Source: a virus | Direction: 5' to 3' (one strand) | Virus record (IMG/VR): IMGVR_UViG_3300002835_000453 | Location: 1-39,141 of that record | DNA: 39,141 nucleotides | In this document: positions 20,501-38,256 of the stretch, one piece after another | Position numbering within the stretch: the stretch's first letter is position 1 | How the letters are laid out: every line of letters starts with the position of its first letter | Program-made: the position numbers and the translations under genes | The notes under the pieces: generated by a model | Databases searched by the model: none | What the model saw: only the letters and a program-made list of their open reading frames with translations | What the model was told of the DNA's origin: nothing

Positions 20501-20509
20501 TGATATAAT
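20501..20509 (+). promoter_or_regulatory. Extended -10 promoter, near-leaderless
   Basis: TGATATAAT is a perfect extended -10, with 9 nt to the ATG at 20519 and no SD between. The predicted transcript would start at most 2-3 nt before the start codon. Confidence 0.6.
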
Positions 20510-20518
20510 GGATACAAT

Positions 20519-20943: not shown

Positions 20944-20952
20944 TGATATAAT
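20944..20952 (+). promoter_or_regulatory. Extended -10 promoter, leaderless
   Basis: TGATATAAT is followed by exactly 6 nt (TTCAAA) and ATG 20959, with no SD. A -35-like TTGCCA (20922-20927) has a long 19-nt spacer. It starts the replication gene block. Confidence 0.65.
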
Positions 20953-20958
20953 TTCAAA

Positions 20959-21168
20959 ATGGATATAAAAAAAGCCTTGACTTGTAAAAAGTGTTATGGT
21001 AAGATGTTTGTTGATAGGGTATTTTTATCCTATGATCATATAGAATTATATTGTTTAAAGTGTGGGCAAAGAGAGATGTATCATAATGTTAGTTCGTTTG
21101 ATGAGAGAATAAGATGGATAATGAAATTGGAAAAGGCCAGAGCAAAAAAGAATGGCAACATAGTATAG
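20959..21168 (+). CDS. Zinc-ribbon protein
   Basis: A 69-residue protein with Cys9-x2-Cys12 and Cys32-x2-Cys35, a classic zinc ribbon, then a basic helical tail. It is the first gene after the tail block and the first of the early or replication block, a usual spot for small regulators. It probably is translated from a leaderless mRNA. Its last codons contain A-AAA-AAG (21144-21150) in the zero frame, and the next ORF overlaps in the -1 frame, so a longer zinc-ribbon/HTH fusion of about 233 residues may also be made. Target unknown. Confidence 0.7.
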   Translation: MDIKKALTCKKCYGKMFVDRVFLSYDHIELYCLKCGQREMYHNVSSFDERIRWIMKLEKARAKKNGNIV

Positions 21169-21659
21169 AGGCAAGTAAGACTATATTTTTTTTAAATAAA
21201 AATCTAGTTAGAGTTGTTCATTCTAATAGGGCTAGTAATATAGTATATTTATATAATTATGCTCAAGATAAAGATCAATCTATGTTATTGTCTGATTTTA
21301 GAAAACATAGGAAAAGGGCTTTTACAATAGGTAATACAATTAAAATTTTTAGAAAATCTAGAATTCAATTTGAAAGACTTATAAAGGCTCAGTTAATACC
21401 ACCACCTACTGGTGCAACTTTAAATGGTGAAAGAAAGTGGCAAAAGATGTCTTACTATTCAGAAGATGACTTGTTTAATATTCGTGAGGGAATGTGCAAT
21501 ATTCATGTGGGAAGGCCAAGAAAAGATGGACAAATAACAATAGGTAAAAATGTTCCTACTGAAAAGGACTTGCGTTCTTTGATAGGAGATGCTATTATGT
21601 TATATACACAAACTAAAGACGGAGAATTTATCCCCGTCTGGGCAGAGGAAACGTGGTGA
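21114..21659 (+). CDS. Helix-turn-helix-like protein, start uncertain
   Basis: The ORF encodes 181 residues from ATG 21114, but this start has only a poor SD (GAGAG, 21103-21107) and lies 55 nt inside the upstream gene. Reading may instead enter by -1 frameshift at 21144-21150. The segment about 60-110 (TIGNTIKIFRKSRIQFERLIKAQLIPPP, then YYSEDDLFNIREGM) looks like a MerR/excisionase-type winged HTH, in which a helix pair is followed by a 'L-I-P-P-P' wing. It is basic in this region, fitting DNA binding. Possible role: transcription switch or replication origin factor. The family is not certain. Confidence 0.6.
   Translation: MDNEIGKGQSKKEWQHSIEASKTIFFLNKNLVRVVHSNRASNIVYLYNYAQDKDQSMLLSDFRKHRKRAFTIGNTIKIFRKSRIQFERLIKAQLIPPPTGATLNGERKWQKMSYYSEDDLFNIREGMCNIHVGRPRKDGQITIGKNVPTEKDLRSLIGDAIMLYTQTKDGEFIPVWAEETW
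21144..21150 (+). other. Candidate -1 frameshift heptamer (dnaX type)
   Basis: A-AAA-AAG lies in phase as X-XXY-YYZ within the overlap of two ORFs whose relative frame is -1. An SD-like AAAAGG (21131-21136) ends 7 nt upstream, reminiscent of the stimulator at E. coli dnaX. Downstream structure is weak (TATAG/CTATA). Confidence 0.45.
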
Positions 21660-21661
21660 TT

Positions 21662-21862
21662 ATGTCAGATAAAACTAATGTATCGGTAACACTTGGTTAC
21701 ACACTTAATTTAGGAAATTTTCAAAGTCTAAGAGTTGATTTAGGATGTACAGACTTTCTTAGAGAAGGTGAAACAATGGACTCAGCAATGGATCGTGTTT
21801 ACAAATTTGTTGAAGAGCAAGTTATTGCAAAAGTAGACGAGGCTAAGAAAGAATTAGAATAG
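21662..21862 (+). CDS. Small conserved-looking protein, unknown
   Basis: A 66-residue acidic protein. A beta-like N-terminal half (VSVTLGYTLNLGNFQSLRVDLG) is followed by a C-terminal helix (about 37-66) rich in Glu and Lys. An in-frame GTG at 21653 is closer to the SD (AGAGG, 21644-21648), so a product three residues longer is possible; ATG 21662 begins just after the upstream stop (21657-21659). The stop overlaps the next GTG (TAGTG). Similar short proteins occur in phage replication blocks, but I cannot assign a function. Confidence 0.6.
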   Translation: MSDKTNVSVTLGYTLNLGNFQSLRVDLGCTDFLREGETMDSAMDRVYKFVEEQVIAKVDEAKKELE

Positions 21863-22182
21863 TGTCAGAAGAAAAAAAACTAACAAAGAATCAAATTAAG
21901 CATCAGTTTCTTAGTGAGTTTGAAAAACGTTTAAAGCAAAAAGGTTTAGATCATAAACTAAATAGGTATACTGAGCAGTATGCAGCACAAGCATTAATAG
22001 ATTCTTACACCGTTGATGAGTGTTATAAGTTGATGAATTATTATTTTGAAGTTTCTTTAACACCATCATGGCTTTGGTTTAAAAACAATGCTGATAAAAT
22101 ATATAAGGCTAAAAATTTAAGAGATGAAGATAGTAGGGTTAGAATGATTTTAAGGCAACAAGCAAAGGATTGGCTAAAGTAA
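21862..22182 (+). CDS. Helical protein before helicase, possible loader
   Basis: A 106-residue protein that is Lys-rich and nearly all helical, with a hydrophobic aromatic core (YKLMNYYFEVSLTPSWLWF, about 55-73). It starts at GTG 21862 within TAGTG and ends in TAATG with the DnaB helicase ATG, so the two are translationally coupled. Being fused so tightly to the helicase gene is typical for helicase loaders or replisome organisers, but no ATPase motif is present and the role is only suggested by place. Confidence 0.5.
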   Translation: MSEEKKLTKNQIKHQFLSEFEKRLKQKGLDHKLNRYTEQYAAQALIDSYTVDECYKLMNYYFEVSLTPSWLWFKNNADKIYKAKNLRDEDSRVRMILRQQAKDWLK

Positions 22183-23408
22183 TGTCTGCAGATTTAGAAT
22201 CAAAGGTTCTTTCAGCCGTATTGAAAGATAAGCAGATATATGTTTTACTACAGGCAAATCCAGATAGTTTATTTAGAACACATAAAGATGTTTGGGATTT
22301 TATAAAGCAATACAGTGAACAAAATTCTGTAGTGCCATCTATGTCTTTGGTGGTAGAAAAGTTTAAAGACTTTAATCCAGTTGGAGAAATAGGAAATACA
22401 AAATATCATTTAGAAGAATTGAGAACTTCTTTTTTGCAAGATAGTTTAAGCGGAGTCTTGATGTCTACCGCTAAACAATTACAAGACAACAAGCCAAATG
22501 ACGCTTTAAATAATTTAATTGGAAAAACTTCTGAGTTAAAAAAGATTACAGTTAACATTAGAGATATTGATGCTACAGATATAGATGATGCTATTGAACA
22601 TTTTAAACACATAAGGGAGTTAAATGAAAAAGGTAACTACGGTATTAAAACAGGTCTTGCGGGCTTTGATAACTATCTTCCAGCAGGTATTACTCCTGGT
22701 CAGTTTGGCATTCTTCTTGCTTATCCTGCTATTGGTAAGTCTTGGCTTGCACTTTTTATGGCTGTTCAAGCATGGAAAAACGGAAGAAGACCACTAGTTA
22801 TATCTCTTGAAATGACGGAGACTGAAGTTAGAAATCGTGTATATACAATTATGGGTCAAGGAATGTTTTCACATAGAAAGTTAAGTTCTGGAGAAGTTGA
22901 TCCAGACTCTTTAAAACTTTGGGCAGATCAACATATAAAAAATATGCCACCATTTCACATTGTTTCAAATGATGGGGTAGGAGAATTATCTACTTCTGTA
23001 TTAAGAGGAAAGATAGATCAATACTCACCAGACATAGTATTTGTAGATTATATTCAATTGATGCAATCAAATGTTCCAACTGAAAATGAAGTTGTAAAAA
23101 TTAAAAGTATTTCAAGAGAGTTAAAGGTATTGGCTATATCTGCACAGGTTCCTATTGTTGCTATTGCCTCTGCTACTCCAGATGATGCTACTGATATGAA
23201 CAGTGTGCCATCTCTTGGTCAGGTTGCTTGGTCAAAGCAGTTGGCTTATGATGCTGACTGGGTTTTGGCATTGGGTCGTGCTCAGGGTACTACAATTCTA
23301 GAATGTGCTTTTAGAAAGAATAGGCATGGGTTTTGTGGAGATTTTATGATAGATGTTGACTTTGATTCTGGAAGATTTATATATAAGGATTTTGAAGACA
23401 AATCATAA
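22182..23408 (+). CDS. Replicative DNA helicase (DnaB family)
   Basis: A 408-residue DnaB-type helicase that unwinds the replication fork. Residues 1 to about 105 form the helical N-terminal domain and about 135-408 the RecA-like motor. Walker A is AYPAIGKS (180-187), with Ala in place of the first Gly; Walker B is DIVFVD (284-289); the ELK-containing helix and the final Arg/basic loops (ALGRAQGTTILECAFRKNRHG) follow. An upstream TTG (22170) is in frame, but ATG 22182 overlaps the previous stop and gives the natural DnaB start (MSADLESKVLSAVL). It works with the primase encoded just downstream. Confidence 0.9.
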   Translation: MSADLESKVLSAVLKDKQIYVLLQANPDSLFRTHKDVWDFIKQYSEQNSVVPSMSLVVEKFKDFNPVGEIGNTKYHLEELRTSFLQDSLSGVLMSTAKQLQDNKPNDALNNLIGKTSELKKITVNIRDIDATDIDDAIEHFKHIRELNEKGNYGIKTGLAGFDNYLPAGITPGQFGILLAYPAIGKSWLALFMAVQAWKNGRRPLVISLEMTETEVRNRVYTIMGQGMFSHRKLSSGEVDPDSLKLWADQHIKNMPPFHIVSNDGVGELSTSVLRGKIDQYSPDIVFVDYIQLMQSNVPTENEVVKIKSISRELKVLAISAQVPIVAIASATPDDATDMNSVPSLGQVAWSKQLAYDADWVLALGRAQGTTILECAFRKNRHGFCGDFMIDVDFDSGRFIYKDFEDKS

Positions 23409-23416
23409 TCTAACTA

Positions 23417-23422
23417 TATAAT
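23417..23422 (+). promoter_or_regulatory. Leaderless -10 promoter
   Basis: TATAAT is followed by exactly 6 nt (TATTAC) and ATG 23429, with no SD. A TTGAAG (23392-23397) lies 19 nt upstream, which is long for a -35. Confidence 0.55.
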
Positions 23423-23428
23423 TATTAC

Positions 23429-23740
23429 ATGTATAGTCATAAGTCAATAAAAAAATTTGACCTTGAAGGCGAGATCCATGATGATTCTCAAATTGTTAGG
23501 TTAAAACAGCAATACATATTTATGCTTGAGTCCGCTATGAGAAATAACGGATACGTTCCTAGATATGATATTGACACAGACTTTACATTGTCGTATAATG
23601 GTAAAGCATTCAATTTTAGATTATCAGTTTATGGGGTACATGTTGGTAAGGATAGGGCAAAGTGTATAGCAGGAATAGACAAAAACAACCCAGTAATGTT
23701 ACCTACTACTCAGAAGAACAAGTCAAGCGAAGTCTTATAG
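23429..23740 (+). CDS. Small protein of unknown function before primase
   Basis: A 103-residue protein with an N-terminal helix (about 18-40) and a beta-rich C-terminal half (DFTLSYNGKAFNFRLSVYGVHVG). It has no SD and probably is expressed from a leaderless transcript starting next to its ATG. Its 3' end overlaps the primase ORF by 79 nt, unusual for this phage. No family recognised. Confidence 0.6.
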   Translation: MYSHKSIKKFDLEGEIHDDSQIVRLKQQYIFMLESAMRNNGYVPRYDIDTDFTLSYNGKAFNFRLSVYGVHVGKDRAKCIAGIDKNNPVMLPTTQKNKSSEVL

Positions 23741-24618
23741 CCGCTGGCATAGATATTCAATACGAACTAGACAATGACTTAATGATTTTTTGTCCCTTTC
23801 ATAATAACTATAGATCTCCAGCAGGAGAGGTTTCAAAAGAGACAGGAATATTTTGGTGTTTTTCTTGTCAGGAATCTAAAAATTTAATAGAAGTTATTAT
23901 GCAGATTAGTAAAAAATCTTATTTTGAAGTAATGAGATTGATAGATTCAAAAGCAGATAGTAGAAATCTTATAGATCAAATATCAAGTACCCTTGAAAAA
24001 ACAAACACTTTTATACAATATGATTTAGAAGTAATAGAAAGATTACATGAAAATGTTTTTACAAATGTTAGGGCTATGAAATATTTTAACGACAGAGGCA
24101 TAAATAAAGATAGTATTGATAGATATAAGTTAGGATATTCAACAAATCAAGATATGGTAATTATCCCAGTACATTCACCAGATGGAATATGTCTAGGTTT
24201 TGTTGGAAGGTCAATAGAAGGAAAAAGATTTAAAAACTCAGTAGATCTTCCTAAAAGTAAAACTTTGTTTAACCTATTTAGAAATAAAAGAGTAGATAAG
24301 ATATTTGTTGTTGAGTCATCGTTTGATGCTATTAGACTAGAACAGGTCGGTGCTCATGCAGTTGCTACTTTAGGTGCAACAATATCTAAAGAACAAAGAA
24401 AACTATTAAAACAATATTTTAATCAAGTTATTGCATTAGGTGATAATGACGATGCTGGAACTAATATGTCTAACAAACTAATAACCGATCTTGGATCTAG
24501 TAGATGTGTAGTAGCAAAACTTCCAAATGGTGTTAAAGATGTGTCTGATTTGTCTGATAAAGAATTAAAAGATTTTGTTTTAGGGTTTGACAATATAGTC
24601 ATGTCAATGCTACAATAA
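23662..24618 (+). CDS. DNA primase (DnaG type, zinc plus TOPRIM)
   Basis: A 318-residue primase making RNA primers for lagging-strand synthesis. The CHC2-type zinc finger is C44-P-F-H47 with C66-F-S-C69. A central basic region (VIIPVHSPDGICLGFVGRSIEGKRF, about 170-192) matches the RNA-polymerase part of DnaG. The TOPRIM domain shows KIFVVESSFDAI with catalytic E218 and LGDNDDAG (about 258-265). It lacks the C-terminal helicase-binding domain of cellular DnaG. Start: GTG 23662 with SD AAGGA (23648-23652) 9 nt upstream, overlapping the upstream gene deeply. No canonical slippery site was found in the overlap. Confidence 0.88.
   Translation: MYSRNRQKQPSNVTYYSEEQVKRSLIAAGIDIQYELDNDLMIFCPFHNNYRSPAGEVSKETGIFWCFSCQESKNLIEVIMQISKKSYFEVMRLIDSKADSRNLIDQISSTLEKTNTFIQYDLEVIERLHENVFTNVRAMKYFNDRGINKDSIDRYKLGYSTNQDMVIIPVHSPDGICLGFVGRSIEGKRFKNSVDLPKSKTLFNLFRNKRVDKIFVVESSFDAIRLEQVGAHAVATLGATISKEQRKLLKQYFNQVIALGDNDDAGTNMSNKLITDLGSSRCVVAKLPNGVKDVSDLSDKELKDFVLGFDNIVMSMLQ
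24587..24616 (+). promoter_or_regulatory. Strong sigma70-type promoter for the ssDNA-binding gene
   Basis: TTGACA (24587-24592), 18-nt spacer, then TGCTACAAT (24608-24616), a -35 consensus plus extended -10. Predicted start near 24623 gives a roughly 33-nt leader with a short GTCC/GGAC hairpin (24627-24641 region) and an SD (AAGGAG, 24646-24651). It overlaps the primase 3' end. Confidence 0.72.
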
Positions 24619-24655
24619 GGTAAGTCCATTTACAGGACAAACACTAAGGAGAAAT

Positions 24656-25306
24656 ATGGCAATTATAAGAGGGTTAAAAAATATAGAAGCAATTGTTGAT
24701 AAACCAAAATATGATAACAATGGTCCAAAAATTAAGTGGTTAAAACTTGATGATGGACAAAGTGTACAAATTAGGTTCGTTGCAGAATTAGATGCAGACT
24801 CACCACATTATGAAGAAAAGCGTGGATTAAGTCTTGTTGTAAAAGAACACACAAATCCAAAAGACTATAAGCGTAAGGCTATAGACACTGTTGACACAGA
24901 GGGTAGAGACTGGGCAGAAGAAATGCACAGAAAAGATCCAAAGGCTGGATGGGGTGGACGTTTAAGGTTTTACACAAGCGTTCTAGTAGATGATGCAATT
25001 AACGAACCATATGTTGCAATCTGGAGTATGGGAGTTGCTAAGTCAGCAACATTTAATACTATCAGAGAATATGCTTCAGAGTCACAAAGTCTATCAAATA
25101 TGACTTGGAAACTAAAGCGTAGTGGCAAGGGTACAGAAACTACATATACTCTTATTCCACTTAAGCAAGATGCAGAACCATTTGACTGGTCAAAATATGA
25201 ATTTCCAAATATTGAAAATGCATTAAGAAAAGTTCCTTATGCAGAACAAGAAGCATTTTATTTGGGCTTTGATAATCCAGCAACATCTGCAGCAGCAGAG
25301 TGGTAA
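24656..25306 (+). CDS. ssDNA-binding protein, phage replisome type
   Basis: A 216-residue protein placed between primase and polymerase. The N-terminal region (IKWLKLDDGQSVQIRFVAEL, about 22-42) has the 'K-L-x-D-G-x-x-x-x-I-R-F' pattern of phage OB-fold ssDNA-binding proteins of gp32 type. A middle segment (YVAIWSMGVAKSATFNTIREY, about 118-138) and TWKLKRSGKGTETTYTLIPL follow. The C-terminus is acidic only weakly (FDNPATSAAAEW). Codon use is CGT- and C-rich compared with neighbours, and it has a strong promoter, both fitting an abundant protein. It differs from the SSB at 38256. Identity is by pattern and context. Confidence 0.68.
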   Translation: MAIIRGLKNIEAIVDKPKYDNNGPKIKWLKLDDGQSVQIRFVAELDADSPHYEEKRGLSLVVKEHTNPKDYKRKAIDTVDTEGRDWAEEMHRKDPKAGWGGRLRFYTSVLVDDAINEPYVAIWSMGVAKSATFNTIREYASESQSLSNMTWKLKRSGKGTETTYTLIPLKQDAEPFDWSKYEFPNIENALRKVPYAEQEAFYLGFDNPATSAAAEW

Positions 25307-25333
25307 GAGAAAGATAATCTGAAGGGCTATGGT

Positions 25334-28300
25334 TTGAATTACGTTCCACTACACGTTCATACACACTATTCATTAATGGATGGTGTTGCAACTCCAGAAG
25401 AGTATTGCAAACGTGCAAAACAAAACGGCATGACAGCCATAGCCATTACAGATCATGGTGCACTATCTGGACATCGTCCAATGTATCGTGCAGCAAAAGC
25501 CGAGGGTATAAAGCCAATTCTTGGTATAGAAGGATATATTACTCATGATAGATTTGATAGAAGAGATAAAGCAGAAAGAGGAGATAATCCCTTAGACTTG
25601 GTTTATAACCACATTGTTATTCTTGCTAAGAATCAACAAGGATTAGAAAACTTAAATAGATTAAATGAAATAGGTTGGACAGAAGGGTTTTATAAAAAAC
25701 CTAGAATTGATTTTGAAGTATTAGAAAAATATAAAGATGGTTTGATTGTTTTATCAGCCTGTATGTCTGGATTAATTGCTAAAGCGTTAGAGCATAAAGA
25801 ATATGCAGAAGCAAAAAGATTATTAACTTGGTTTAAAAATACATTTGGTGATGATTTCTATGTAGAGGTTATGCCACATAATTCAAAAGAATTAAATAAT
25901 GAACTACTTGAGATTGCAGACAGCATGGACATTAAATCTGTTGTTACGCCAGACTGTCATCATTCTACAGTTGATCAAAAGGTTGTTCAAGAAATTATGC
26001 TTCTTTTAAATACACATGCAAAACTTGATAAAGAAGCAAGGTTTGAAAAATCTCAAAAGATAGATGATATTATGAAACGTCTTGACTACCTGTATGGTGC
26101 AGATAGACCTATGTCATTTAGATCATTTGATATTCATCTTCTTTCATATGAAGAGATGAAACAACAGATGAATATGCAGGGTATAAAGAGAGAAGATATC
26201 TATACTAATTCACTAGAGATAGCAGATAAGATAGAAGAATATGATATTAAATCTGGATTAGACTTACTACCAACAAAAATAGATGACCCTCATATGGGCT
26301 TAGTAGATTTGGTATTAAAAGGTTTAACTGAAAAAGGTTTATATGATAAGCCAGAATATAGAGAAAGAATGCAAGAAGAGTTAGATATTATTAAAGATAA
26401 AAACTTTTCCCCATATTTTTTGATTGTAAGCAATATGCTTAATTGGGCAAAGAGTCAAGGAATTCTAGTAGGACCTGGCCGTGGTTCAGCAGCAGGATCT
26501 TTAGTTTGCTACGCACTTGGAATCACAGATGTTGATCCACTTAAATATGGTTTATTGTTTTTTAGATTTGTTAATCCAGAACGTAATGATTTTCCAGATA
26601 TTGATTCCGATATTGCTGACTCAAGACGTGATGAGTTAAAGGGATATTTAGAAGAAGAGTATAAAAACGTTGCATCTATTGCTACATTTTTAGAGTTTAG
26701 AGGAAAAGGAATTGTTAGAGATGTTTCTAGAGCATTTAACATACCTTTATCTGATGTAAATAAAGTTTTAAAAAATGTAGATGATTGGGATGAATTTACC
26801 TCAAGTAAAAATGCACAATGGTTTAGAATGAAGTATCCAGAAGTAGTTAAGTATGGAGAGCAACTTCGTGGACGTATTCGTGGGACTGGTATTCATGCTG
26901 CTGGTGTTGTAACTGCAAAAGACTCTATCTTTAAATACGCACCTATGGAAACTAGAGTGGCACCAGGAAGTAAGGATCGTATACCAGTTGTTGCTGTAGA
27001 TATGAACGAAGCAGCAGATATTGGATTGATTAAACTAGATGTTCTAGGACTAAAAACATTAACTGTTATTGATGAAACAATTAAAACTATTAAACAAAGA
27101 CACAAGGTAGATATTAAATTAAATAGTATTGATCTTAATGATAAAAAAGTTTATGAAATGCTTTCAGATGGAAGAACAAAGGGGGTCTTTCAATGTGAAG
27201 CAACTCCATATACAAACTTACTAGTAAAAATGGGTGTGTCTAACCTAGACGAATTAGCAGCATCTAACGCACTTGTAAGACCAGGTGCTATGAATACTAT
27301 TGGTAAAACATATCTTGCAAGAAAGCATGGAAAAACAATTACAGAATATATTCATCCTATTATGCAAGAGTTTACAAAAGATACATATGGTTGTGTTTTA
27401 TATCAAGAGCAGGTTATGCAGGCTTGCGTTTATCTTGGTGGAATGAGTATGGCAGAAGCAGATAAGGTTAGAAAGATTATTGGTAAAAAGAAAGATGCTA
27501 AAGAATTTGACGAGTTTAAGGATAGATTCGTAGTTGGTGCATCAAAACATGTTACCCCATTTAAAGCAGAGGCCCTATGGCATGATTTTGAGGCTCACGC
27601 AGGCTACTCCTTTAACAAGTCACATGCCGTTGCTTATTCAATGCTTTCATATTGGACTGCATGGTTAAAATATTATTATCCAATTGAGTTTATGTATTGT
27701 TTGTTAAAAAATGAACAAGACAAAGATGCAAGAACAGAATATTTAATTGAAGCAAAAAAAATGGGTATATCGGTAAAACTTCCACACGTTAATGAATCAG
27801 ATTCTGATTTTACAATTGAGGGTAAGGGAATTCGTGTTGGACTATCTTCAATTAAATGGATATCAGATCTAGTTGCGTCAAAAATCATAGCACGCAGACC
27901 ATATACTTCTTATGAAGAGTTTACAAGTCTTGCTTCTAAAAAAGGAAGTTCAATTAACATTAGAGCAGTTCAGGCTTTAAACGCTATTGGTGCTTTAGCA
28001 TTTCCAGATAACTTAAGACAAGAAAGTGTTGTAAAAGAAAATCTTTATGAATACTTAAACCTTCCAGAGTTTACGACAAGTGTTCCACCGCACTATTACG
28101 CTTATATAGATGATATTGAAGATTTTGATGAAACAGATGTTCACATTATTATGGGTGTTGTCAAAAATATTAAACGTGGCAAGGGATGGTCAAGAATAGA
28201 AATAATGGATGCTACAGGAATGCTTGGAGTATTTGATGAAGAAGATACTAAAATAGAGCAAGGCAAGACTTATTTATTTTTAGTTGGAGCAAATAGAATT

Positions 28301-30368: not shown

Positions 30369-31141
30369 TGACAAAAGCATTAATAAAAAAAATGGTTAAA
30401 AAAGAACCTAACACTATTGACTTTTCTATTATAGAAAAAGAAATTGTAGAAGGTCACGTTAGGGTTTATGGAACGAATAAGTTTATGACTAAAAAAACTT
30501 TTGCACCATCCTCATTGGTATACGGAAATGGAATGTGTCCTAGATATTGGTATCTTGCCTTTGAAGGAAATGAGTTTGAAAATAAAACTGATGGAACATC
30601 TTTTGCAAATATGAATGCTGGAACAGATGCACATACAAGAATAATTGAAAATGTATTAAAAGACTCTGAAATTGTAGAATGGTATGAGCAATATGTAACA
30701 TGTGATGATCCACCAATCAATGGAAAGATGGACGCCTTACTTAAAATTGATGATAATCTTGTAGCGTTTGAATTAAAAACAGCCAAAGATGAAGGTTTTA
30801 ATTATCACAAGGCTAAAAATAGTGCTAGCAGATATCATATAGAACAAGTATTAATTTATATGAAGATATTGAATTTAAAGTATGGGGCTATTGTTTATGA
30901 AAATAAAAATACTTTTGAAATATTATCTATACCTATAGTAGTAAATGAAAAACATGTAGAGTTTATTAACTACCTATTTGATTGGATGCGTAGAGTTAAA
31001 AAAGCATTTGATGAAAAGCAGTTGCCAGAAAGAGGATATAGAAAAGATTCTAAGATATGTAAATCTTGTCCTTTAGAAAAAGTATGTGATTCAAAAGATA
31101 AGGGTGTAATTAAAATCGAAAGAAGGAAAGAACTTGAATGA
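30368..31141 (+). CDS. Cas4/RecB-like PD-(D/E)xK nuclease with Fe-S site
   Basis: A 257-residue nuclease of the RecB/Cas4 family. Active-site residues are H89 (GTDAH), D122 (NGKMDALL) and E135-x-K137 (FELKT), followed by a Gln-helix-like segment (HIEQVLIYM). Four cysteines match an iron-sulfur cluster: C57 (MCPRYWY) and C231-x2-C234-x5-C240 near the C-terminus. Such enzymes are 5'-3' exonucleases that trim DNA ends for recombination. No cas1/cas2 or repeat array is present, so this is a phage recombination nuclease and not part of a CRISPR system. SD AAGGA. Confidence 0.88.
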   Translation: MTKALIKKMVKKEPNTIDFSIIEKEIVEGHVRVYGTNKFMTKKTFAPSSLVYGNGMCPRYWYLAFEGNEFENKTDGTSFANMNAGTDAHTRIIENVLKDSEIVEWYEQYVTCDDPPINGKMDALLKIDDNLVAFELKTAKDEGFNYHKAKNSASRYHIEQVLIYMKILNLKYGAIVYENKNTFEILSIPIVVNEKHVEFINYLFDWMRRVKKAFDEKQLPERGYRKDSKICKSCPLEKVCDSKDKGVIKIERRKELE

Positions 31142-31431
31142 TAAAATATTGCGAATGGTGCGATGATTCTTTTGATACAAAAAATAAAAATCAAATCTAT
31201 TGTGATCCAAAATGTAGAGCGATTGCTACAAAGAAAAAGATTGCTCAAAGATATAAACTTAATAAATCAAAAGAAAAAATGGGTAAAACAAAAAAATGTG
31301 CTGGGGGATGTACCACTATGATTAGTGTATATAGTGATTCAAAGTTTTGTGATGTTTGTTTAGTGGATATCAAAAAAACAGAAAGATTTATTAAAGATTT
31401 GAGGAATTTATTTAATTATGAGCAAAAGTAA
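31138..31431 (+). CDS. Double zinc-finger protein
   Basis: A 97-residue protein with two Cys modules: C5-x2-C8 with C22-x3-C26, and C54-x3-C58 with C71-x2-C74, separated by a Lys-rich linker. The first resembles the treble clef of DUF2116-like or transcription-associated fingers (CEWC...YCDPKCR). It overlaps the Cas4-like gene by ATGA, so it is translated in the same set. Probably nucleic-acid binding; target unknown. The missing His-Asn-His residues rule out an HNH nuclease. Confidence 0.7.
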   Translation: MIKYCEWCDDSFDTKNKNQIYCDPKCRAIATKKKIAQRYKLNKSKEKMGKTKKCAGGCTTMISVYSDSKFCDVCLVDIKKTERFIKDLRNLFNYEQK

Positions 31432-32032
31432 ATTAAGGTATATAGGAAATCCAAAAACTATTTTAGCAATTGATGCGTCAACAAATTCTATGGCATTTTC
31501 TTTATTTACAGATAGAAAGTTAGTAAAGTATGGCAAGGTAAATTTTTATGGAAACCATGTTTATGAAAGAACTGGTGATGCAACTAAAAAGATTAGTGAA
31601 TTTTTAAAAGATTATAATATTGATGCAATAGTAGTTGAGTCTGCTATATTTACAAACTCTCAAAATACAGCCATAACTTTATCTTTAGTTCAAGGAGCAA
31701 TACTTGGTGCAAGTCAAATGTACAATAAGTCACCAATAGTTTCATGCTCTCCAGTTTCTTGGCAGTCATGGATTGGAAACGGTAGACTTAAAAAAGAAGA
31801 AAAACAAGCAATTAAAGATCTTCATGGAGAAGAAAAGTCTTATTCGTTTTATAAATCAAAAGAGAGAGAATTTAGAAAATTAAGAACTATAAAAAAGATA
31901 AACATGGAATTTGATCTTACAGTAAATGATGATGATGTTGCTGATGCTGTTGCTATAGGATGGTATGCATCAGAAAATTGGCATAAGTTAGTAGATCAGC
32001 CTCATAATCTTGACAAGGGAAATAGGAAATGA
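31418..32032 (+). CDS. RuvC-like Holliday junction resolvase
   Basis: A 204-residue RNase H-fold nuclease. D19 (AIDAST), E74 (VVESAIF) and D173/D176 (DDVADAVAI) reproduce the RuvC acidic tetrad, on strands 1, 4 and the last helix. A Lys/Arg-rich insertion (about 120-155) is longer than in cellular RuvC and may bind DNA. Located with RecA-, Cas4- and terminase-related genes, it probably resolves branched replication DNA before packaging. The SD (GAGGA) is about 13 nt before ATG. Confidence 0.85.
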   Translation: MSKSKLRYIGNPKTILAIDASTNSMAFSLFTDRKLVKYGKVNFYGNHVYERTGDATKKISEFLKDYNIDAIVVESAIFTNSQNTAITLSLVQGAILGASQMYNKSPIVSCSPVSWQSWIGNGRLKKEEKQAIKDLHGEEKSYSFYKSKEREFRKLRTIKKINMEFDLTVNDDDVADAVAIGWYASENWHKLVDQPHNLDKGNRK

Positions 32033-32036
32033 TAAA

Positions 32037-32186
32037 ATGAAGTTATATACAAGTGAAGCCTGGCTTAAGAAAAGGTATCAAGTTGACAAGAAAAGTCCTG
32101 AGCAAATTGCTAAAGAATGCGGAGCATCTGTTGAAACTATATACGTATATCTTGCCAAGTTTGGTCTTAGAAAGTCAAAAAGGTAA
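32037..32186 (+). CDS. Small helix-turn-helix protein
   Basis: A 49-residue basic protein. The segment PEQIAKECGASVETIYVYLAKFGL (about 21-44) is a textbook HTH, like a sigma-factor region 4 or resolvase-type HTH, with the Ala in the turn (GAS). SD AGGAAA precedes ATG. It sits between RuvC-like and DUF1599-like genes; it may be a DNA-binding regulator or a terminase-associated recognition protein. The ORF is short, but the codon-level pattern and precise fit between neighbours (stop 32186, next ATG 32189) support it. Confidence 0.75.
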   Translation: MKLYTSEAWLKKRYQVDKKSPEQIAKECGASVETIYVYLAKFGLRKSKR

Positions 32187-32188
32187 AT

Positions 32189-32524
32189 ATGGCAGATTAT
32201 AAGTATCCAGATTTTGAAAAACAACTTGAAGATCGTATGAAGTTTATTCGTGATATCTCAACCCAAGCACCTGCTGGTAGAAAGATATTAGATGAATGTC
32301 TTGATATAGCAGAATTACTTATTAAAAAGAATAACTCTTATGGTAGTTCATATAGTCATCCTATTAACATATTCAGTAAATCTACCCCAAAAGAACAAAT
32401 TTATATCCGTATTGATGATAAACTTAATAGAATACACAAAGGTAAAGAGTATGCATCTGAAGATACTATTTTAGATCTTATTGGCTACCTTGTATTATTA
32501 AGGACATTAGATGAGCGAGAATGA
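32189..32524 (+). CDS. DUF1599-like (nucleotide modification-associated) protein
   Basis: A 111-residue protein with the pattern KNNSYGSS, then PINIFSKSTPKEQIYIRIDDKLNRI and DTILDLIGYLVLLRT. This strongly resembles the DUF1599 family (Nmad1-like, all-helical and distantly MazG-like), which occurs in phages near DNA or nucleotide-modifying genes. The conserved Asp/Glu positions fit metal-dependent nucleotide binding. No modification enzyme is seen beside it, so its substrate is unclear. SD AAAGG. Confidence 0.72.
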   Translation: MADYKYPDFEKQLEDRMKFIRDISTQAPAGRKILDECLDIAELLIKKNNSYGSSYSHPINIFSKSTPKEQIYIRIDDKLNRIHKGKEYASEDTILDLIGYLVLLRTLDERE

Positions 32525-33032
32525 TTTAGTTAAACACTTAGACTTGGTTAACCAGGTTGCTGCAGAGTATCTTAAAGGATATGATGCTTCTCAAATTGCT
32601 AAAGAGTTAGACATTCCTCGTCAAAAGGTCATGGCACTTCTTAATGACTGGCGTTCTATGATTTCTAATAATCAAGCCATTCATATGAGAGCAAAGGAAG
32701 CATTGGCAGGTGCTGATCAACACTACTCATCTTTAATTAAAAAAACTTATGAAGTTATTGATGCTGCAGATTCTACTGCAAATCTTACAGCAAAGACAAC
32801 CGCTATCAAACTGATAGCAGATATTGAAAGCAAAAGACTTGAAATGCTGCAAAAAGCAGGGTTGCTAGATAATAAAGAAATAGCAGAACAAATTATTGAA
32901 ATGGAAAGAAAGCAAAGTGTTCTTATTGGAATATTAAAAGAGATAGCAACAAAGCACCCAGAAATTCGTGAAGAAATAATGCGTAGACTATCTGAAGTAC
33001 AAACAGAGGTGATAGTAATTGACAACGATTGA
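32511..33032 (+). CDS. terS: Terminase small subunit
   Basis: A 173-residue DNA-recognition subunit of the packaging motor. Residues about 10-50 form an HTH (AEYLKGYDASQIAKELDIPRQKVMALLNDW), followed by a long helical oligomerisation region (about 60-150) and an acidic tail. It overlaps the DUF1599-like gene by 14 nt, and the large subunit starts in its last codons (TTG 33019), the usual TerS/TerL arrangement. Identified by the HTH and by direct coupling to the large subunit. Confidence 0.8.
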   Translation: MSENDLVKHLDLVNQVAAEYLKGYDASQIAKELDIPRQKVMALLNDWRSMISNNQAIHMRAKEALAGADQHYSSLIKKTYEVIDAADSTANLTAKTTAIKLIADIESKRLEMLQKAGLLDNKEIAEQIIEMERKQSVLIGILKEIATKHPEIREEIMRRLSEVQTEVIVIDND

Positions 33033-34794
33033 TTTTAGTGAATTTATAGAAGCACTGGATGAAAGTCCTTTTGAGGAAATGCCAGTAGATGTTAAAACAT
33101 TTGTAAGAAGTAAAGATTATTTAAACATGCCAGAATTATCTGAATATCAATATACTCTTGTAGAATGTATGAGTCAAATATATAAACAAGAAGATGTTGA
33201 GAGATGGCTTGGAAAACAAAAGGGTGACGAACACTATAGAAAGTATACTAAGTCTGAAGTTATTCTTATGTGTGGCAAGGGTAGTGGGAAAGACCATACT
33301 TCTACTATTGGCTGTGCTTATATTGTTTATAAACTACTTTGCCTTAAAGACCCATCAAGATATTTTGGAAAGCCTTCCAATGATGCAATAGATCTTATTA
33401 ACGTAGCAGTTAACGCACAACAAGCAAAGAATGTTTTTTTTAAAGGCTTTAAATCTAAGATAGAAGGATCACCTTGGTTTGCTGGTAAATATAAAGAGCC
33501 TAAGATAGATAGCATAGAGTTTAATAAATCAATAACTGTTTATTCAGGTCACTCTGAAAGAGAATCAGCAGAAGGTTTAAACTTAATGCTTGCAGTTCTT
33601 GATGAAATTTCTGGATTTGCAATGGAGAACGCTGGAGGAAATGATCAAGGAAAAACTGCTGATAACTTATACAAAGCATTTCGTGGATCAGTAGACTCTA
33701 GATTTCCAGACTATGGAAAAGTTATTTTACTTTCCTTTCCTAGATTTAAAGGAGACTTTATATCTCAAAGGTATGATGATGTTGTTGCTGAAAAAGAAAC
33801 AATAGTAAGAGAGCATGAGTTTATAATTAATCCAACATTGTCTGAAGATGATCCATCTAATAAGTTTACTATTGAGTGGGAAGAAGATAATATTTTATCT
33901 TATAAGTTCCCTGGAGTTTTTGCATTACGAAGACCAACTTGGGAAATGAATCCAACAAGAAAAATAGAAGATTTTAAGATAGCATTTTTTACAGACTCTT
34001 CAGATGCACTAATGCGTTTTGCTTGTATGCCAACAACTTCTTCAGATGCATTTTTTAAATCAAGAGAAAAGGTTGAAAGAGCATTGTCTTCTAGAAATCC
34101 TTTAGACACTAATAGAAGATTTGATTTAACTTTTAAACCAAAAGAAGATATAGAATATTTTGTTCATGCAGATCTTGCACAAAAACATGATAAATGTGCA
34201 GTGTCAATTGCTCATGTTGACAAGTGGGTAAGTGTTCAATCATTTAATGACTATGAGCAAATAGTTCCTTTTGTAGTAGTAGACGCTATTGCTTGGTGGG
34301 AGCCAAAGCGTGAAGGACCTGTAGATCTAAGTGAAGTTAAAAACTGGATTATAGATTTAAGAAGAAGTGGTTTTAACTTAGGCTTAGTAACATTTGATCG
34401 TTGGCAATCATTTGACATCCAGCAAGAATTAAAACAGGTAGGAATAAGAACTGAAACTTTATCTGTTGCTAAAAAACATTATGAGGATTTGTCTATGCTT
34501 ATATATGAAGACAGAGTTATTGCACCACATATTGATATCTTATTAGAAGAGTTATTAGAATTAAGAATAATGAACAATAATAAGGTTGATCATCCTAGGA
34601 AAAAATCTAAAGACTTAGCAGATGCTATGTGTGGGTCTGTTTATAATGCTATAGTGCATGCTCAAAGAGATAGAGTAAAAGAAATAGATATTCATACTTG
34701 GTCAAGAGGAAGTATTGATAACGATACTGGACTGCCTAAAGACAAAATTCGTGGTAAGGAGTTGGACTGGGGTTCGGGGTATAGATTAATATGA
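33019..34794 (+). CDS. terL: Terminase large subunit
   Basis: A 591-residue packaging ATPase and nuclease. Walker A is C85-GKGSGKD (86-92), with Asp after the Lys as in many siphovirus terminases; Walker B is LMLAVLDE (D195, E196). The RNase H-like nuclease carries D385 (HADLAQ), D460 (VTFDRW) and D535 (KDLADAM). The TTG start 33019 has SD GAGGTGAT (33006-33013) 5 nt upstream. It overlaps the next gene by ATGA. The portal gene usually following is not next; instead come an unknown gene and the Tudor-like protein. Confidence 0.93.
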   Translation: MTTIDFSEFIEALDESPFEEMPVDVKTFVRSKDYLNMPELSEYQYTLVECMSQIYKQEDVERWLGKQKGDEHYRKYTKSEVILMCGKGSGKDHTSTIGCAYIVYKLLCLKDPSRYFGKPSNDAIDLINVAVNAQQAKNVFFKGFKSKIEGSPWFAGKYKEPKIDSIEFNKSITVYSGHSERESAEGLNLMLAVLDEISGFAMENAGGNDQGKTADNLYKAFRGSVDSRFPDYGKVILLSFPRFKGDFISQRYDDVVAEKETIVREHEFIINPTLSEDDPSNKFTIEWEEDNILSYKFPGVFALRRPTWEMNPTRKIEDFKIAFFTDSSDALMRFACMPTTSSDAFFKSREKVERALSSRNPLDTNRRFDLTFKPKEDIEYFVHADLAQKHDKCAVSIAHVDKWVSVQSFNDYEQIVPFVVVDAIAWWEPKREGPVDLSEVKNWIIDLRRSGFNLGLVTFDRWQSFDIQQELKQVGIRTETLSVAKKHYEDLSMLIYEDRVIAPHIDILLEELLELRIMNNNKVDHPRKKSKDLADAMCGSVYNAIVHAQRDRVKEIDIHTWSRGSIDNDTGLPKDKIRGKELDWGSGYRLI

Positions 34795-35141
34795 GAGATA
34801 TTAACGAAGAAGAATATCATAGATTAATAGAAAAACTACTTGAAATAGGGGTTTTAGAAATAACTGGATATGATTCTATATCTGATCAATTTACCTATAA
34901 TATTACCCCTGAATGTGAAGAGTTGCTGCCAGAACTATGGCAAGAGCATTTTAAATTCATTAATGAATTAGCCTTTGAAATGTGGAATGAGGGTTTGATA
35001 GAGATGAATTTTAGTAAAGATGGGACTCCAATGGTTATGTTAAAGCCAGAAACGGTAGCCATAAAAAACTCTCTTCCAGACGATAAAAGATTTTTTATAG
35101 AAAACCTATTAAATAAACATAACACTGGTGATATAATTTAA
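34791..35141 (+). CDS. Protein of unknown function after terminase
   Basis: A 116-residue acidic protein starting in the terminase stop (ATGA). Its residues 5-50 (EEYHRLIEKLLEIGVLEITGYDSISDQFTYNITP) have the helix-helix-wing pattern of a winged helix ('L-I-E-x-G-x-L-E-I...F-x-Y-x-I-T-P'), so a DNA-binding or adaptor role is possible. Its last codons carry the -10 element of the next gene's promoter. Confidence 0.55.
   Translation: MRDINEEEYHRLIEKLLEIGVLEITGYDSISDQFTYNITPECEELLPELWQEHFKFINELAFEMWNEGLIEMNFSKDGTPMVMLKPETVAIKNSLPDDKRFFIENLLNKHNTGDII
35129..35137 (+). promoter_or_regulatory. Extended -10 promoter, leaderless, inside the upstream gene end
   Basis: TGATATAAT encodes the last residues of the upstream gene and is followed by 6 nt and ATG 35144, with no SD. 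Confidence 0.65.
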
Positions 35142-35143
35142 CT

Positions 35144-36466
35144 ATGCCTTATGATATTAAAAGAAACTATGGTGGTTGCAGTGGTTATGCAGTCGTAGGT
35201 CCTGGTGGTACCAAGGGCTGTCATTCAACACGAGGCAAAGCCGTTGAACAACAAAGGGCTTTATATGCCGCTGAATCGCAAACCAAAAAATCAGACACTG
35301 GGATTATAACAAATCAAGATGTTCCACAACCATACCCACATTCAATAGAAGATTGTCCAGATTTAAAAAATTGTCCAGACCACATGGCTTCTTATGACGA
35401 AGAAGCAAATAAAAAAGCACCATGCTGGGACGGATATGTACAACGTGGTATGAAGCCAGGAGAGGGTGGAAGAATGGTTCCAAATTGTGTTCCTGTTGCA
35501 AAATTAAAAGATTGCTGTCCAGATATGATTAAAATGGAAAACCCACAAGAAGGAATGTTTGTAATGGGTCCTGGAAATGAGTACACAAAAGAACATTCAC
35601 ATGGAAAAATAGAACATGTTATGAGAGATGGAAGTCTTGGTCCAGGATCTAAGTTTGAAATACAAGCCACTATGGAAGATCCAGCGTTACTAATTAGAAT
35701 TTATAAACAAACAGAAAATGGTTGGGAAGAAACAGATTTAATGACAGGATTTAAATCATCAGAAGCAACACTCGTTGGTAACGAACAAGATATGCAAGAG
35801 CATTCAATGGAAAAAGCAGATTCAGTTCGTATTGGACAAATGGTATCTTGGAACTCCAGTGGTGGAAGAGCAGAAGGAAAAGTAATTAGAATAATTAGAA
35901 GTGGAAAATATAAAGTTCCAGATAGTTCTTTTGAAATTAACGGAACAGAAGAAGATCCAGCAGTTGCAATTAGATTGTATCGTGATGGAGAGCCTACAGA
36001 TACAATTGTTGGTCATAAAATGAAAACATTAACAGTTAAAAAATCAATGGAAGAAATTGATTTAGAAAAAAGATCATTAGAAGATTTAGACTTAAGGCCA
36101 ACAGAATCGATGGCATCAAATGCTCGTAGAGGATTAGAATTAAGAAGAAAATTTGGCAGAGGCGGAACAGCAGTAGGAGTTGCTCGTGCTAGAGATTTAT
36201 CAAACAGAAATCAATTAAGCCCAGATACAGTATTAAGAATGTATTCTTTCTTTTCTCGTCATGAAGTAGATAAAAAAGGTAAAGATTTTAACAACTCAGA
36301 AAGACCATCAAATGGAAAAATTGCTTGGCTTCTTTGGGGTGGAGACTCTGGATTTGCATGGGCTAAGTCCAAAAGAAACGCAATTATGAATATTAGATCT
36401 CAAAAATCAAACGATGCAGCCTGGCAAGATTCAGCATTTTCATTTAAAAAATATCTTGACAATTAG
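35144..36466 (+). CDS. Multidomain head-associated protein with Tudor-like repeats
   Basis: A 440-residue protein with three recognisable parts. Residues 1-46 (CSGYAVVGPGGTKGCHSTRGKAVEQQRALYAAES) match the short 'GYAV...GCH-x-T...A-x-x-Q-x-x-ALYA' module often found in phage head-maturation proteins. Two repeats of about 80 residues (about 120-215 and 222-305) share the pattern FEI-x-x-T-x-EDPA-x-x-IR-x-Y, and the second starts VRIGQMVSWNSSGGRAEGKV, like the DUF2945/Hva_TUDOR domain. The C-terminal part (about 320-440) has ARRGLELRRKFGRGGTAVGV and IAWLLWGGD-x-x-FAWA, a domain seen in phage structural or protease-linked proteins. Seven cysteines cluster at about 60-125. Function unknown; expressed leaderless. 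Confidence 0.65.
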   Translation: MPYDIKRNYGGCSGYAVVGPGGTKGCHSTRGKAVEQQRALYAAESQTKKSDTGIITNQDVPQPYPHSIEDCPDLKNCPDHMASYDEEANKKAPCWDGYVQRGMKPGEGGRMVPNCVPVAKLKDCCPDMIKMENPQEGMFVMGPGNEYTKEHSHGKIEHVMRDGSLGPGSKFEIQATMEDPALLIRIYKQTENGWEETDLMTGFKSSEATLVGNEQDMQEHSMEKADSVRIGQMVSWNSSGGRAEGKVIRIIRSGKYKVPDSSFEINGTEEDPAVAIRLYRDGEPTDTIVGHKMKTLTVKKSMEEIDLEKRSLEDLDLRPTESMASNARRGLELRRKFGRGGTAVGVARARDLSNRNQLSPDTVLRMYSFFSRHEVDKKGKDFNNSERPSNGKIAWLLWGGDSGFAWAKSKRNAIMNIRSQKSNDAAWQDSAFSFKKYLDN

Positions 36467-36484
36467 ACTGTATTAGTATAAAAT
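36456..36484 (+). promoter_or_regulatory. Sigma70-type promoter for the accessory gene block
   Basis: TTGACA (36456-36461), a 17-nt spacer and TAAAAT (36479-36484), overlapping the end of the upstream gene. SD AAAGGAG (36490-36496) and ATG 36506 follow. It likely drives the accessory genes downstream. Confidence 0.6.
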
Positions 36485-36505
36485 TGTATAAAGGAGTTTT
36501 ATAAC

Positions 36506-36907
36506 ATGGTCGTAACAGGAATAAGAAGTATTTTTAAATTGTGTTTAATTGCTGCTGGAAGCAGTGCTTTAAATTTGGGTATCAATTTTAACTTTATAAA
36601 AAACATAATGAATGAAAATAAGAAAAACAATTTAAAAAATTTAACTGTTGAAAAAATAATTTCTACTCCACCAAAAGAACAGTCATCAATTCCTGAAGAA
36701 GATATTATAAAAGATGATGAAGATGTAAATGTTTCTATAGTAAATGATCTAGCGTATTGGATCAAAAATAATAAAGTTTATACTTCAAGAATTAATAAGT
36801 TTGGCGATATTGATGTTAAAAACGCTAAGGTAGTTGATGTTTTTAAGTTATCAAATAAAGAAACTCAGATGCTTTTAAAAATAGTAGATAACCTGAATTC
36901 TAATTAA
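36506..36907 (+). CDS. Unknown protein with N-terminal hydrophobic segment
   Basis: A 133-residue protein. Residues about 8-30 (SIFKLCLIAAGSSALNLGINFNFI) are weakly hydrophobic, possibly a membrane anchor or signal; the rest is Lys/Asn/Glu-rich and acidic around 60-75. A later start at ATG 36608 would drop the hydrophobic part, but the SD fits ATG 36506. No family recognised. It begins the accessory block after a sigma70-type promoter. Confidence 0.55.
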   Translation: MVVTGIRSIFKLCLIAAGSSALNLGINFNFIKNIMNENKKNNLKNLTVEKIISTPPKEQSSIPEEDIIKDDEDVNVSIVNDLAYWIKNNKVYTSRINKFGDIDVKNAKVVDVFKLSNKETQMLLKIVDNLNSN

Positions 36908-36908
36908 T

Positions 36909-37256
36909 ATGATTATTACAGTAGAGGGTACTAAAACCTTTTCCGATTATGAAATTTTTATGAGAGCAATGAGTGTGGCTTTGTCAAATATTAAAGATAA
37001 TGAAATAAATGTTTGGTCTTTAGGTCCTCATAAAATAAATAGTTTTACAGCATCTTTTTGTAATTCTTCAGAATCGTTTTTAAAAAATAAAGGTTTTAAA
37101 GTTAATTTTTATAAAATATCACATCAGTGGCTAGCAGAAAATTTGTTCAGTGTTGACTATTATGCTTTTTTTAGTATGCCAAAGGAACCTGAATCAAAAA
37201 TGTGTAAGGCTGCACAACTAGTAGAAGGGTGCGAAGTTGGAATTTTTAGATACTAG
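36909..37256 (+). CDS. SLOG-like nucleotide-binding-fold protein, putative
   Basis: A 115-residue protein. The N-terminal MIITVEGTKTFSDYEIFMRAMSVAL has the 'G-x-x-x-F-x-D-Y-x-x-F' start of SLOG (DprA/YspA-like) domains, which bind nucleotide-related ligands, and NVWSLGPHKINSFTASFCN looks like the second phosphate-binding strand-loop. The C-terminal half ends with a conserved-looking CEVGIFRY. No SD precedes ATG, which directly follows the upstream stop. Function unknown; SLOG folds are found in phage counter-defence and in signalling systems. Confidence 0.5.
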   Translation: MIITVEGTKTFSDYEIFMRAMSVALSNIKDNEINVWSLGPHKINSFTASFCNSSESFLKNKGFKVNFYKISHQWLAENLFSVDYYAFFSMPKEPESKMCKAAQLVEGCEVGIFRY

Positions 37257-37512
37257 TTATTGGTCTATAATTATTTTTATTATACAAACCTTATCTTTAA
37301 TTACGGTTTTGTTATTATTGATAAAGCAAAGTATGTTTGCAGCAACTCTGTCTGCAATTTTTTGGGTATTGCTTCAATTATCTTTTTCAATATATGGTTA
37401 TGCAACAAGTCAGGTAGGATTCTTTTTAATGGGAGTTGTTAATATTATAATTTCCATGATTGGGGTAATGGTCGGGGTATATAGAGATGAGGAAATAAGT
37501 AATGAAGATTAA
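37237..37512 (+). CDS. Small three-helix membrane protein
   Basis: A 91-residue protein with hydrophobic segments at about 8-27 (WSIIIFIIQTLSLITVLLLL), 33-55 and 58-80, ending with a short acidic tail (YRDEEISNED). TTG 37237 with SD AAGGG (37225-37229) 7 nt upstream gives a 20-nt overlap with the previous gene. The 'QVGFF-x-x-GVVNIIISMIGV' pattern resembles half of a PQ-loop/PnuC-type protein. Its size and topology would also fit a class I holin, but no endolysin is nearby, so that is only a possibility. Confidence 0.6.
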   Translation: MEFLDTSYWSIIIFIIQTLSLITVLLLLIKQSMFAATLSAIFWVLLQLSFSIYGYATSQVGFFLMGVVNIIISMIGVMVGVYRDEEISNED

Positions 37513-37723
37513 CGGATTTGATGAAATGAATTCTATAGTAAGCCTAAATAATAATGTTGAGTGGGATAATTGGACGGTAGTTGTATTAACAGATGATGAT
37601 GGCTATTATACTAAGAATGGCATTTTTAAAGACGGAGTATGGAAAACTCAATATAGATATGAAATGGTGGACTATGGTGTGTGGGAAATTCCAGATAGGT
37701 TTTTAACACATGTACAAGTTTAG
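37502..37723 (+). CDS. Small acidic protein of unknown function
   Basis: A 73-residue Trp-rich protein (six Trp) with alternating beta pattern (WDNWTVVVLTDDDGYYTKNGIF). SD GAGGAA precedes ATG. It overlaps the membrane gene upstream and the WhiB-like gene downstream. No family recognised. Confidence 0.55.
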   Translation: MKINGFDEMNSIVSLNNNVEWDNWTVVVLTDDDGYYTKNGIFKDGVWKTQYRYEMVDYGVWEIPDRFLTHVQV

Positions 37724-37994
37724 TGAGGATAGATCGTGTTTAAATATGGACACAAATTTATTTTTTGAAAAGTATGAAGAGGATGTTATTGTTGCACAGG
37801 GTATAGATACTCTATGTTCAAAATGTCCGTTTCAAAGAAAGTGTCTTGCGTATGGGGTAAGCAATCAAGAGTGGGGTGTTTGGGGCGGGGTATATATTGA
37901 ATCAGGTAAAATATCTAGAGAGTTTAATAAACATAAGGATAATGATGCTTGGTTTAAAATATGGTCTGGTGTAACAATGGATAAAAATGTATAA
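37710..37994 (+). CDS. WhiB-like Fe-S transcription factor
   Basis: A 94-residue protein with the full WhiB signature: C10 after an N-terminal DRSCL, then C36-x2-C39-x5-C45 as ligands of a [4Fe-4S] cluster, and the G56-V-W-G-G60 turn. WhiB proteins bind the primary sigma factor to redirect transcription and are redox- or NO-sensitive; they are found in Actinobacteria and their phages. The C-terminal basic part is short (about 66-94) and lacks the usual AT-hook-like Lys/Arg run, so it may act by blocking rather than binding DNA. Likely role: shift host transcription or regulate phage promoters. ATG overlaps the previous gene by 14 nt. Confidence 0.85.
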   Translation: MYKFSEDRSCLNMDTNLFFEKYEEDVIVAQGIDTLCSKCPFQRKCLAYGVSNQEWGVWGGVYIESGKISREFNKHKDNDAWFKIWSGVTMDKNV

Positions 37995-37995
37995 T
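37990..37995 (+). promoter_or_regulatory. Leaderless -10 promoter
   Basis: TATAAT lies exactly 6 nt before ATG 38002, with no SD. It overlaps the end of the WhiB-like gene. Confidence 0.5.
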
Positions 37996-38001
37996 TTATC
38001 A

Positions 38002-38256
38002 ATGCAAAAAGCATTTAAGTCAATTCCAGTTCCTAAAGATTTTAAGGCACATATAGTTGACTATGATACCTTTATTGTGATAAGATTTTATGAAAGCCAA
38101 TGGAGACATTATACAGAGGCAGAAAGATTTAAGTGCGTTACTTACATGTTAAATGTAAAACAAGCACTTGAAAAGTTAGGGGCTAGAGTGGCATTAGATC
38201 CAGTCCTTGACTTAGAAACACCAAAGGATAGAGCAGAGAGAAGAAGGAGAAAATAA
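38002..38256 (+). CDS. Small basic protein before SSB, start decided by leaderless promoter
   Basis: An 84-residue protein with a beta-rich centre (KAHIVDYDTFIVIRFY) and a basic C-terminal tail (KDRAERRRRK). An in-frame ATG at 37987 would add five residues but has a weak SD and would lie inside the predicted -10 region. ATG 38002 has TATAAT 6 nt ahead, as at other leaderless genes here. The stop overlaps the SSB ATG (TAATG). Function unknown; a DNA-linked role next to SSB is possible. Confidence 0.6.
   Translation: MQKAFKSIPVPKDFKAHIVDYDTFIVIRFYESQWRHYTEAERFKCVTYMLNVKQALEKLGARVALDPVLDLETPKDRAERRRRK

Follow-up and report, generated by a model that had tools for sequence, protein, structure and literature searches.

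The 39,141 bp window analysed here, virus record IMGVR_UViG_3300002835_000453 of IMG/VR (∼33% GC), contains three plus-strand genes, named by their start positions 20959, 23429, and 35144, in which a −10 hexamer TATAAT ends exactly six nucleotides (nt) before the start codon. These hexamers very probably belong to extended −10 promoters used by the host sigma factor, giving rise to leaderless or near-leaderless mRNAs. Transcription usually starts ∼7 nt after the −10, and a gap of six nt places +1 on the A of the ATG. In the proposed mechanism, TGnTATAAT without a −35 box would be read by the main sigma factor of the host, and the fixed distance between the −10 and the start would set the first transcribed nucleotide on, or within 1–3 nt of, that A. 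The resulting mRNA, devoid of a leader and of a Shine-Dalgarno (SD) sequence, would be translated from its 5′-terminal AUG, as in many actinobacterial genes. Below, k is the number of nt between the end of the −10 hexamer and the start codon, and motifs of the AGGA, GGAG, or GAGG type are counted as SD.

TATAAT-N6-ATG is present exactly four times in the window, always on the plus strand (20947–20961, 23417–23431, 35132–35146, and 37990–38004). An earlier sequence-only reading had assigned all four to gene starts. The strings are indeed there, and those of 20959, 23429, and 35144 are promoter-like, while the ATG at 38002 is an internal methionine codon. Counted before any ATG, four matches are weakly unusual (shuffled mean 1.33, sd 1.22; 7 of 100 shuffles reach at least four), and a scan of the window for the broad motif TANNNT that ignored gene starts gave no clear peak. 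Chance, whereby AT-rich upstream sequence happens to yield TATAAT near ATG, draws support from the first of these counts and is the correct account of 38002. At the 44 real gene starts the picture differs: three TATAATs fall at k = 6 against 0.057 expected, and none of 5000 dinucleotide-shuffled versions of these upstream regions reaches three. The probability of finding at least three at any single spacing over these starts is P = 0.0014. The enrichment over a shuffled background that the sequence-only reading had left for testing is therefore present, and its view that the six-nt spacing is not accidental holds for three gene starts, with 38002 a coincidence. Chance is already refuted for 35144 and 23429, where the spacing is near-completely conserved, and equally AT-rich phages of non-actinobacterial hosts have no peak at k = 6; as a general account it is highly improbable.

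The strongest leaderless case among the sites is gene 35144 (35144–36466, plus strand), which lies beside the terminase genes and encodes a 440-amino acid (aa) protein with a Hva1_TUDOR domain (Pfam PF11160, 1.6e-9). Its predicted leaderless start is formed by the extended −10 promoter TGATATAAT-TTAACT-ATG (35129–35146). Of the 45 distinct upstream sequences of this family, 96% carry TATAAT at k = 6 and all (100%) have TANNNT there; an SD is found in 0%, and the start is ATG in 45/45. T-15, G-14, and positions −12 to −7 reach or approach 2 bits, with lower values for the n and for one A, and most positions farther upstream are far lower. The N-terminus MPYDI is conserved in relatives from ATG 35144, and in the related loci L272–L274 the start has changed from ATG to GTG with the six-nt spacing kept. 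In many relatives the upstream open reading frame (ORF) stops before the element, ∼18 nt earlier, and the promoter is kept and an SD is still absent; conservation of TGnTATAAT in this family is therefore not due to coding. Distant homologs in other phages (L286, L294, L297, and L302) begin with MPY, carry a GGAG-type SD, and have no such promoter; two of these phages were checked and are WhiB-bearing. Depending on the phage group, the start of this gene is thus either led by an SD or abutted by a promoter.

Gene 23429 (23429–23740, plus strand) encodes a 103-aa protein of PHROG 17515 between the DnaB helicase and the primase. Its predicted leaderless start, TATAAT-TATTAC-ATG (23417–23431, plus strand), is non-coding in the window, as it is located in the 20-nt gap behind dnaB. 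Across 53 distinct orthologs, TATAAT occurs at k = 6–8 in 96% (70% at k = 6, 26% at k = 7), an SD in 4%, and an ATG start in 52. The coding sequence itself contains a perfect sigma-70 promoter, TTGACA-17-TATAAT (23571–23599), ∼60 nt before the primase gene at 23662. All 64 orthologs with a YNG motif at this position keep at least 5/6 of the −35 together with TATAAT or TACAAT, and asparagine is always encoded there by AAT, whereas AAC makes up 46% elsewhere in the gene. For these two reasons, the element is probably a real internal promoter for the primase.

The third gene, 20959 (20959–21168, plus strand), encodes a 69-aa protein of PHROG 12850 with two CxxC pairs that resemble a zinc ribbon; in Pfam, the TFIIB zinc ribbon matched at E = 0.027, below the cut-off. 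Its extended −10 promoter TGATATAAT-TTCAAA-ATG (20944–20961, plus strand) is likewise predicted to give a leaderless start. TATAAT is found at k = 6–8 in 41% of 27 orthologs (19% at k = 6, 22% at k = 8), an SD in 11%, and an ATG start in 26.

A −35 box, sought in the three families as TTGACA 16–18 nt upstream, gave mean matches equal to or below those of shuffled sequence. TGn precedes the hexamer in 100% of the TATAAT-bearing members of the 35144 and 20959 families and in 57% of those of the 23429 family, whose window copy has TATAAT without the TG. Other tested families have ∼0% exact TATAAT at k = 6–8. All three genes thus combine a −10 ∼12 bp upstream, freedom from SD, spacing conserved above shuffled sequence, and an AUG or GUG start, the properties of the genes termed TA-led. 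The claim that the sites are SD-free stands for these families and fails for that of gene 20519, in which GGAG follows TATAAT.

The same layout recurs in relatives, for which DnaB, terminase, capsid, and the 35144 protein served as search queries. A survey of 297 related loci for TGnTATAAT ahead of ORFs of 60 aa or more gave 86 distinct sites with k = 6, 14 with k = 7, 7 with k = 8, and 22 with k = 9; there are none at k = 11–13 and a second group at k = 14–18. The gap at k = 11–13 might point to a leader length that is forbidden, but with few families contributing no such rule is proposed. By gene families, whose counts are approximate because the clustering was single-linkage and the ORF calling crude, TGnTATA(A/C)T stands at k = 6 in 18 families of the related contigs, at k = 7 in 8, at k = 8 in 5, at k = 9 in 4, and in at most 6 at any k from 10 to 40. 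Taken alone, the window's own clade has nine families at k = 6, and a more distant outer group has ten. Among the 103 genes of the 87 kb relative G002, seven have TATAAT at k = 6, and no other spacing has more than two. Five non-actinobacterial phages used as controls (T4, HTVC008M, K, P-SSM2, and KSY1; 250 kb, 34% GC) carry TGnTATA(A/C)T once at k = 5–9 and 18 times at k = 10–40. Selection holding the −10 at 6 (6–9) nt from the start of an SD-free set of actinophage genes is supported by these data.

In G002, a run of genes on the minus strand (L335:4487–13263) encodes glycine-rich proteins and proteins with collagen and C1q domains, which are probably tail fibres. Several of these genes have their own TATAAT-N6-ATG, which suggests that each fibre gene is separately promoted.

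Reading by the host sigma factor is favoured because the element is a consensus one and because no sigma-70 region 2 protein was found in relatives. The search for a phage Sigma70_r2 domain covered 13 related contigs, which are fragmentary, so that a gp55-like sigma factor could have escaped it. A phage-specific class akin to the late promoters of T4, in which a phage sigma factor recognises a box resembling a −10, would agree with the lack of a −35 at these sites. The conserved element, however, is the consensus TGnTATAAT and not TATAAATA, and the same element serves leadered genes, which leaves this class very unlikely.

Several observations weigh against leaderless expression from host-type promoters, or narrow it. 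In the window, 35144 starts 2 nt past the upstream stop, and translational coupling to the upstream gene could also supply its translation. The promoters may then be real and the proteins made mostly from read-through mRNA, with the leaderless form minor. Upstream stops lie no more than 20 nt before the other starts too, and SD-poor genes adjoining or overlapping their predecessor, such as dnaB at 22170, exist in the genome. Coupling has no need of a fixed six-nt spacing, though, and the 35144 relatives whose upstream gene ends ∼18 nt earlier stay SD-free with the promoter kept; this account is unlikely, if less so than the other alternatives. For 20959, the exact layout is kept in about 41% of orthologs, the rest having TATACT or a shifted start. 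Orthologs of 23429 occupy the same place in Streptomyces phages and in Rhodococcus phage Weasels2, in the order DnaB, 23429, primase, and SSB shared with the window, but there they overlap or closely trail dnaB or have an SD, and the promoter is absent. The idea that the 23429 promoter is ancestral to the wider phage group was rejected on that ground. Finally, the k = 6 signals of a genome from the putative host family have TGn in only 4%, include few TATAATs, and are mostly non-consensus; the phage element therefore does not look like a plain copy of them.

The host class follows from the phage itself. A WhiB-family gene (37710–37994, plus strand; PF02467, E = 1.5e-10, 41.9 bits against a cut-off of 23.6) is present in the window, and 16 of 18 related contigs also encode WhiB. 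WhiB proteins are regarded as exclusive to Actinobacteria (PMC10202952, PMC6802176), and by its own WhiB gene the phage, which comes from lake freshwater, is classed as an actinobacterial virus (actinophage). Its closest named phages are the Stanwilliamsviridae, which infect Streptomyces, and Weasels2; identity to Streptomyces phages reaches 58% for the terminase, and DnaB is ∼34–37% identical. A scan of bacterial genomes with the terminase gave no match, and one with the capsid gave a single match, L248, a distant relative on a contig of an Actinomycetota metagenome-assembled genome (MAG). In 400 kb of one genome from the family of this MAG (40% GC), 66 of 376 genes have TANNNT at k = 6, compared with 7–9 at k = 12, 20, and 30. 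A scan for exact TATAAT before any ATG in 31 genomes of this presumed host family was uninformative, and the gene-start test replaced it. From the k = 6 excess, the phage probably follows the −10/start geometry of its hosts, whose family is assigned indirectly.

The fourth TATAAT-N6-ATG is false. Orthologs of the gene assigned to 38002 are conserved from ATG 37987 (MYT/MYN...), so the gene runs from 37987 to 38256 on the plus strand, and 38002 was rejected as its start. The string ATGTATAAT is the ATG-TAT-AAT beginning of the 37987 gene and includes the TAA stop (37992–37994) of the overlapping whiB. TATAAT at 37990–37995 is found in 0/30 distinct orthologs; it is coding and, by conservation, no promoter. 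The idea that start codons are generally misplaced, with the real ones upstream or further in, is correct for this gene. For 20959, 23429, and 35144, no in-frame start codon lies between the preceding stop and the ATG, and close relatives share the N-terminal sequence from that codon onward, which makes such an error extremely improbable there.

The fifth site named by the sequence-only reading, TGATATAAT 9 nt before ATG 20519, is present, with its TATAAT at 20504–20509. Whereas 38002 lacks the TA-led placement of the −10, gene 20519 has its −10 at k = 9, and its promoter TGATATAAT-GGATACAAT-ATG (20501–20521, plus strand) is predicted to give a leader of 2–3 nt that is not strictly leaderless. 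The family is split between a form with k = 9 and GGAG right after the −10 and a form with k = 15–18 and an AGGAG leader. In 17 distinct sequences, GGAG stands directly behind TATAAT, where the window copy reads GGAT. Orthologs in L016, L040, and L064 switch between TATAAT-GGAG-N5-ATG and TATAAT-TAACTAGGAG-ATG, in which the SD lies near the 5′ end of the mRNA. The family forms a natural series of leader lengths, in which 20519 would be an intermediate. In the k = 9 form, the SD lies inside the promoter and would be usable only by a read-through mRNA.

Leadered promoters of the same phage provide a comparison. The promoters that the sequence-only reading placed at 1127, 4555, 4992, and 24608 do have SD-bearing leaders, all on the plus strand. 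TGATATAAT is followed by the SD GAGGTG and ATG 1153 (1127–1155, k = 17), and TGCTATAAT by an AGGAAAGG-type SD and ATG 4586 (4555–4588, k = 22) and, in a second copy, by AGGAGG and ATG 5026 (4992–5028, k = 25). Among 5026 orthologs, 88% have TATAAT within 45 nt and 91% an SD. The SSB gene at ATG 24656 has a −35 as well, in the arrangement TTGACA-18-TACAAT followed by the SD AAGGAG (24587–24658). Because 1153, 4586, and 5026 share TGnTATAAT with the leaderless candidates and carry it at k = 17–25 with an SD, the two modes seem to differ in promoter position and not in promoter type. The phage probably uses both modes of translation, as had been proposed. The further proposal that they serve different stages of infection is unsupported: leaderless-type starts are found at replication genes, beside the terminase, and at the tail-fibre-like genes of G002, and by gene content do not mark one stage.

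Two further sites have −35 boxes. Gene 36506 is preceded by TTGACA-17-TAAAAT (36456–36505); its relatives retain TTGACA along with a −10 resembling TAGTGTAAAAT, and the protein is highly variable. The geneless 156-nt gap at 32033–32188, where another TTGACA-17-TAAAAT ends at 32038, is possibly a small RNA or a missed small gene; a search of the window against Rfam gave no match at the gathering threshold.

Gene starts of this kind are known. TA-led genes of Actinobacteria and Deinococcus-Thermus have a signal that is read as leaderless (Zheng et al. 2011, PMC3160421), and in Deinococcus the −10 adjoins the ORF of leaderless genes (PMC12340547). The phage genes resemble both in having TANNNT ∼12 bp upstream (k = 6), no SD, and fixed spacing, and differ in belonging to a phage of ∼33% GC with a near-consensus TGnTATAAT. 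In M. tuberculosis, leaderless transcripts have been identified by mapping of transcription start sites, with TANNNT centred 7–12 bp upstream of the starts (Cortes et al. 2013, PMC3898074), and Actinobacteria widely translate mRNAs with a 5′-terminal AUG (PMC3160421, PMC3898074). Those transcripts are likewise driven by a −10 without a −35 and begin no farther than 5 nt from the start codon. TGn is found in only 7% of the TANNNT promoters of M. tuberculosis, in contrast to 57–100% in the three phage families.

Leaderless phage genes also have precedents. The promoters PL1, PR2, and PL2 of cluster O mycobacteriophages are predicted to be leaderless, with +1 on the first base of the codon (PMC4351075). 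These are few and belong to one phage cluster, whereas the promoters described here are internal, spread over many gene families of freshwater phages, and tested by conservation. In phage PY54, the mRNAs of cI and cro were shown by RACE to be leaderless, as is lambda cI (PMC4488713). Here too phage genes would have leaderless mRNAs, in this case predicted from sequence; those of PY54 and lambda are repressor genes of temperate phages with Gram-negative hosts, unlike the replication-region and packaging-adjacent genes of the window. The literature searched contains no report of a leaderless class in freshwater actinophages.

Although genuine and conserved, the pattern represents an already-known kind of gene start, and knowledge of how leaderless mRNAs work is unchanged by it. 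What it adds is an argument from conservation that leaderless genes form a regular class in freshwater actinophages, and an example of one gene family whose start is led by an SD in certain phages and abutted by a promoter in others. Programs that rely on the SD to call start sites can misplace starts in these phages. A more speculative and rather doubtful extension is that, owing to the strong, consensus, six-nt-spaced promoters of this lineage, some genes can be translated from no mRNA other than their own leaderless one. If so, SD-free genes would be poorly translated from read-through operon mRNA, and changes in the promoter, or in the capacity of the host for leaderless translation, would control these genes apart from the SD-led ones. 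The swap between SD-led and leaderless starts in the 35144 and 20519 families would then be its evolutionary trace.

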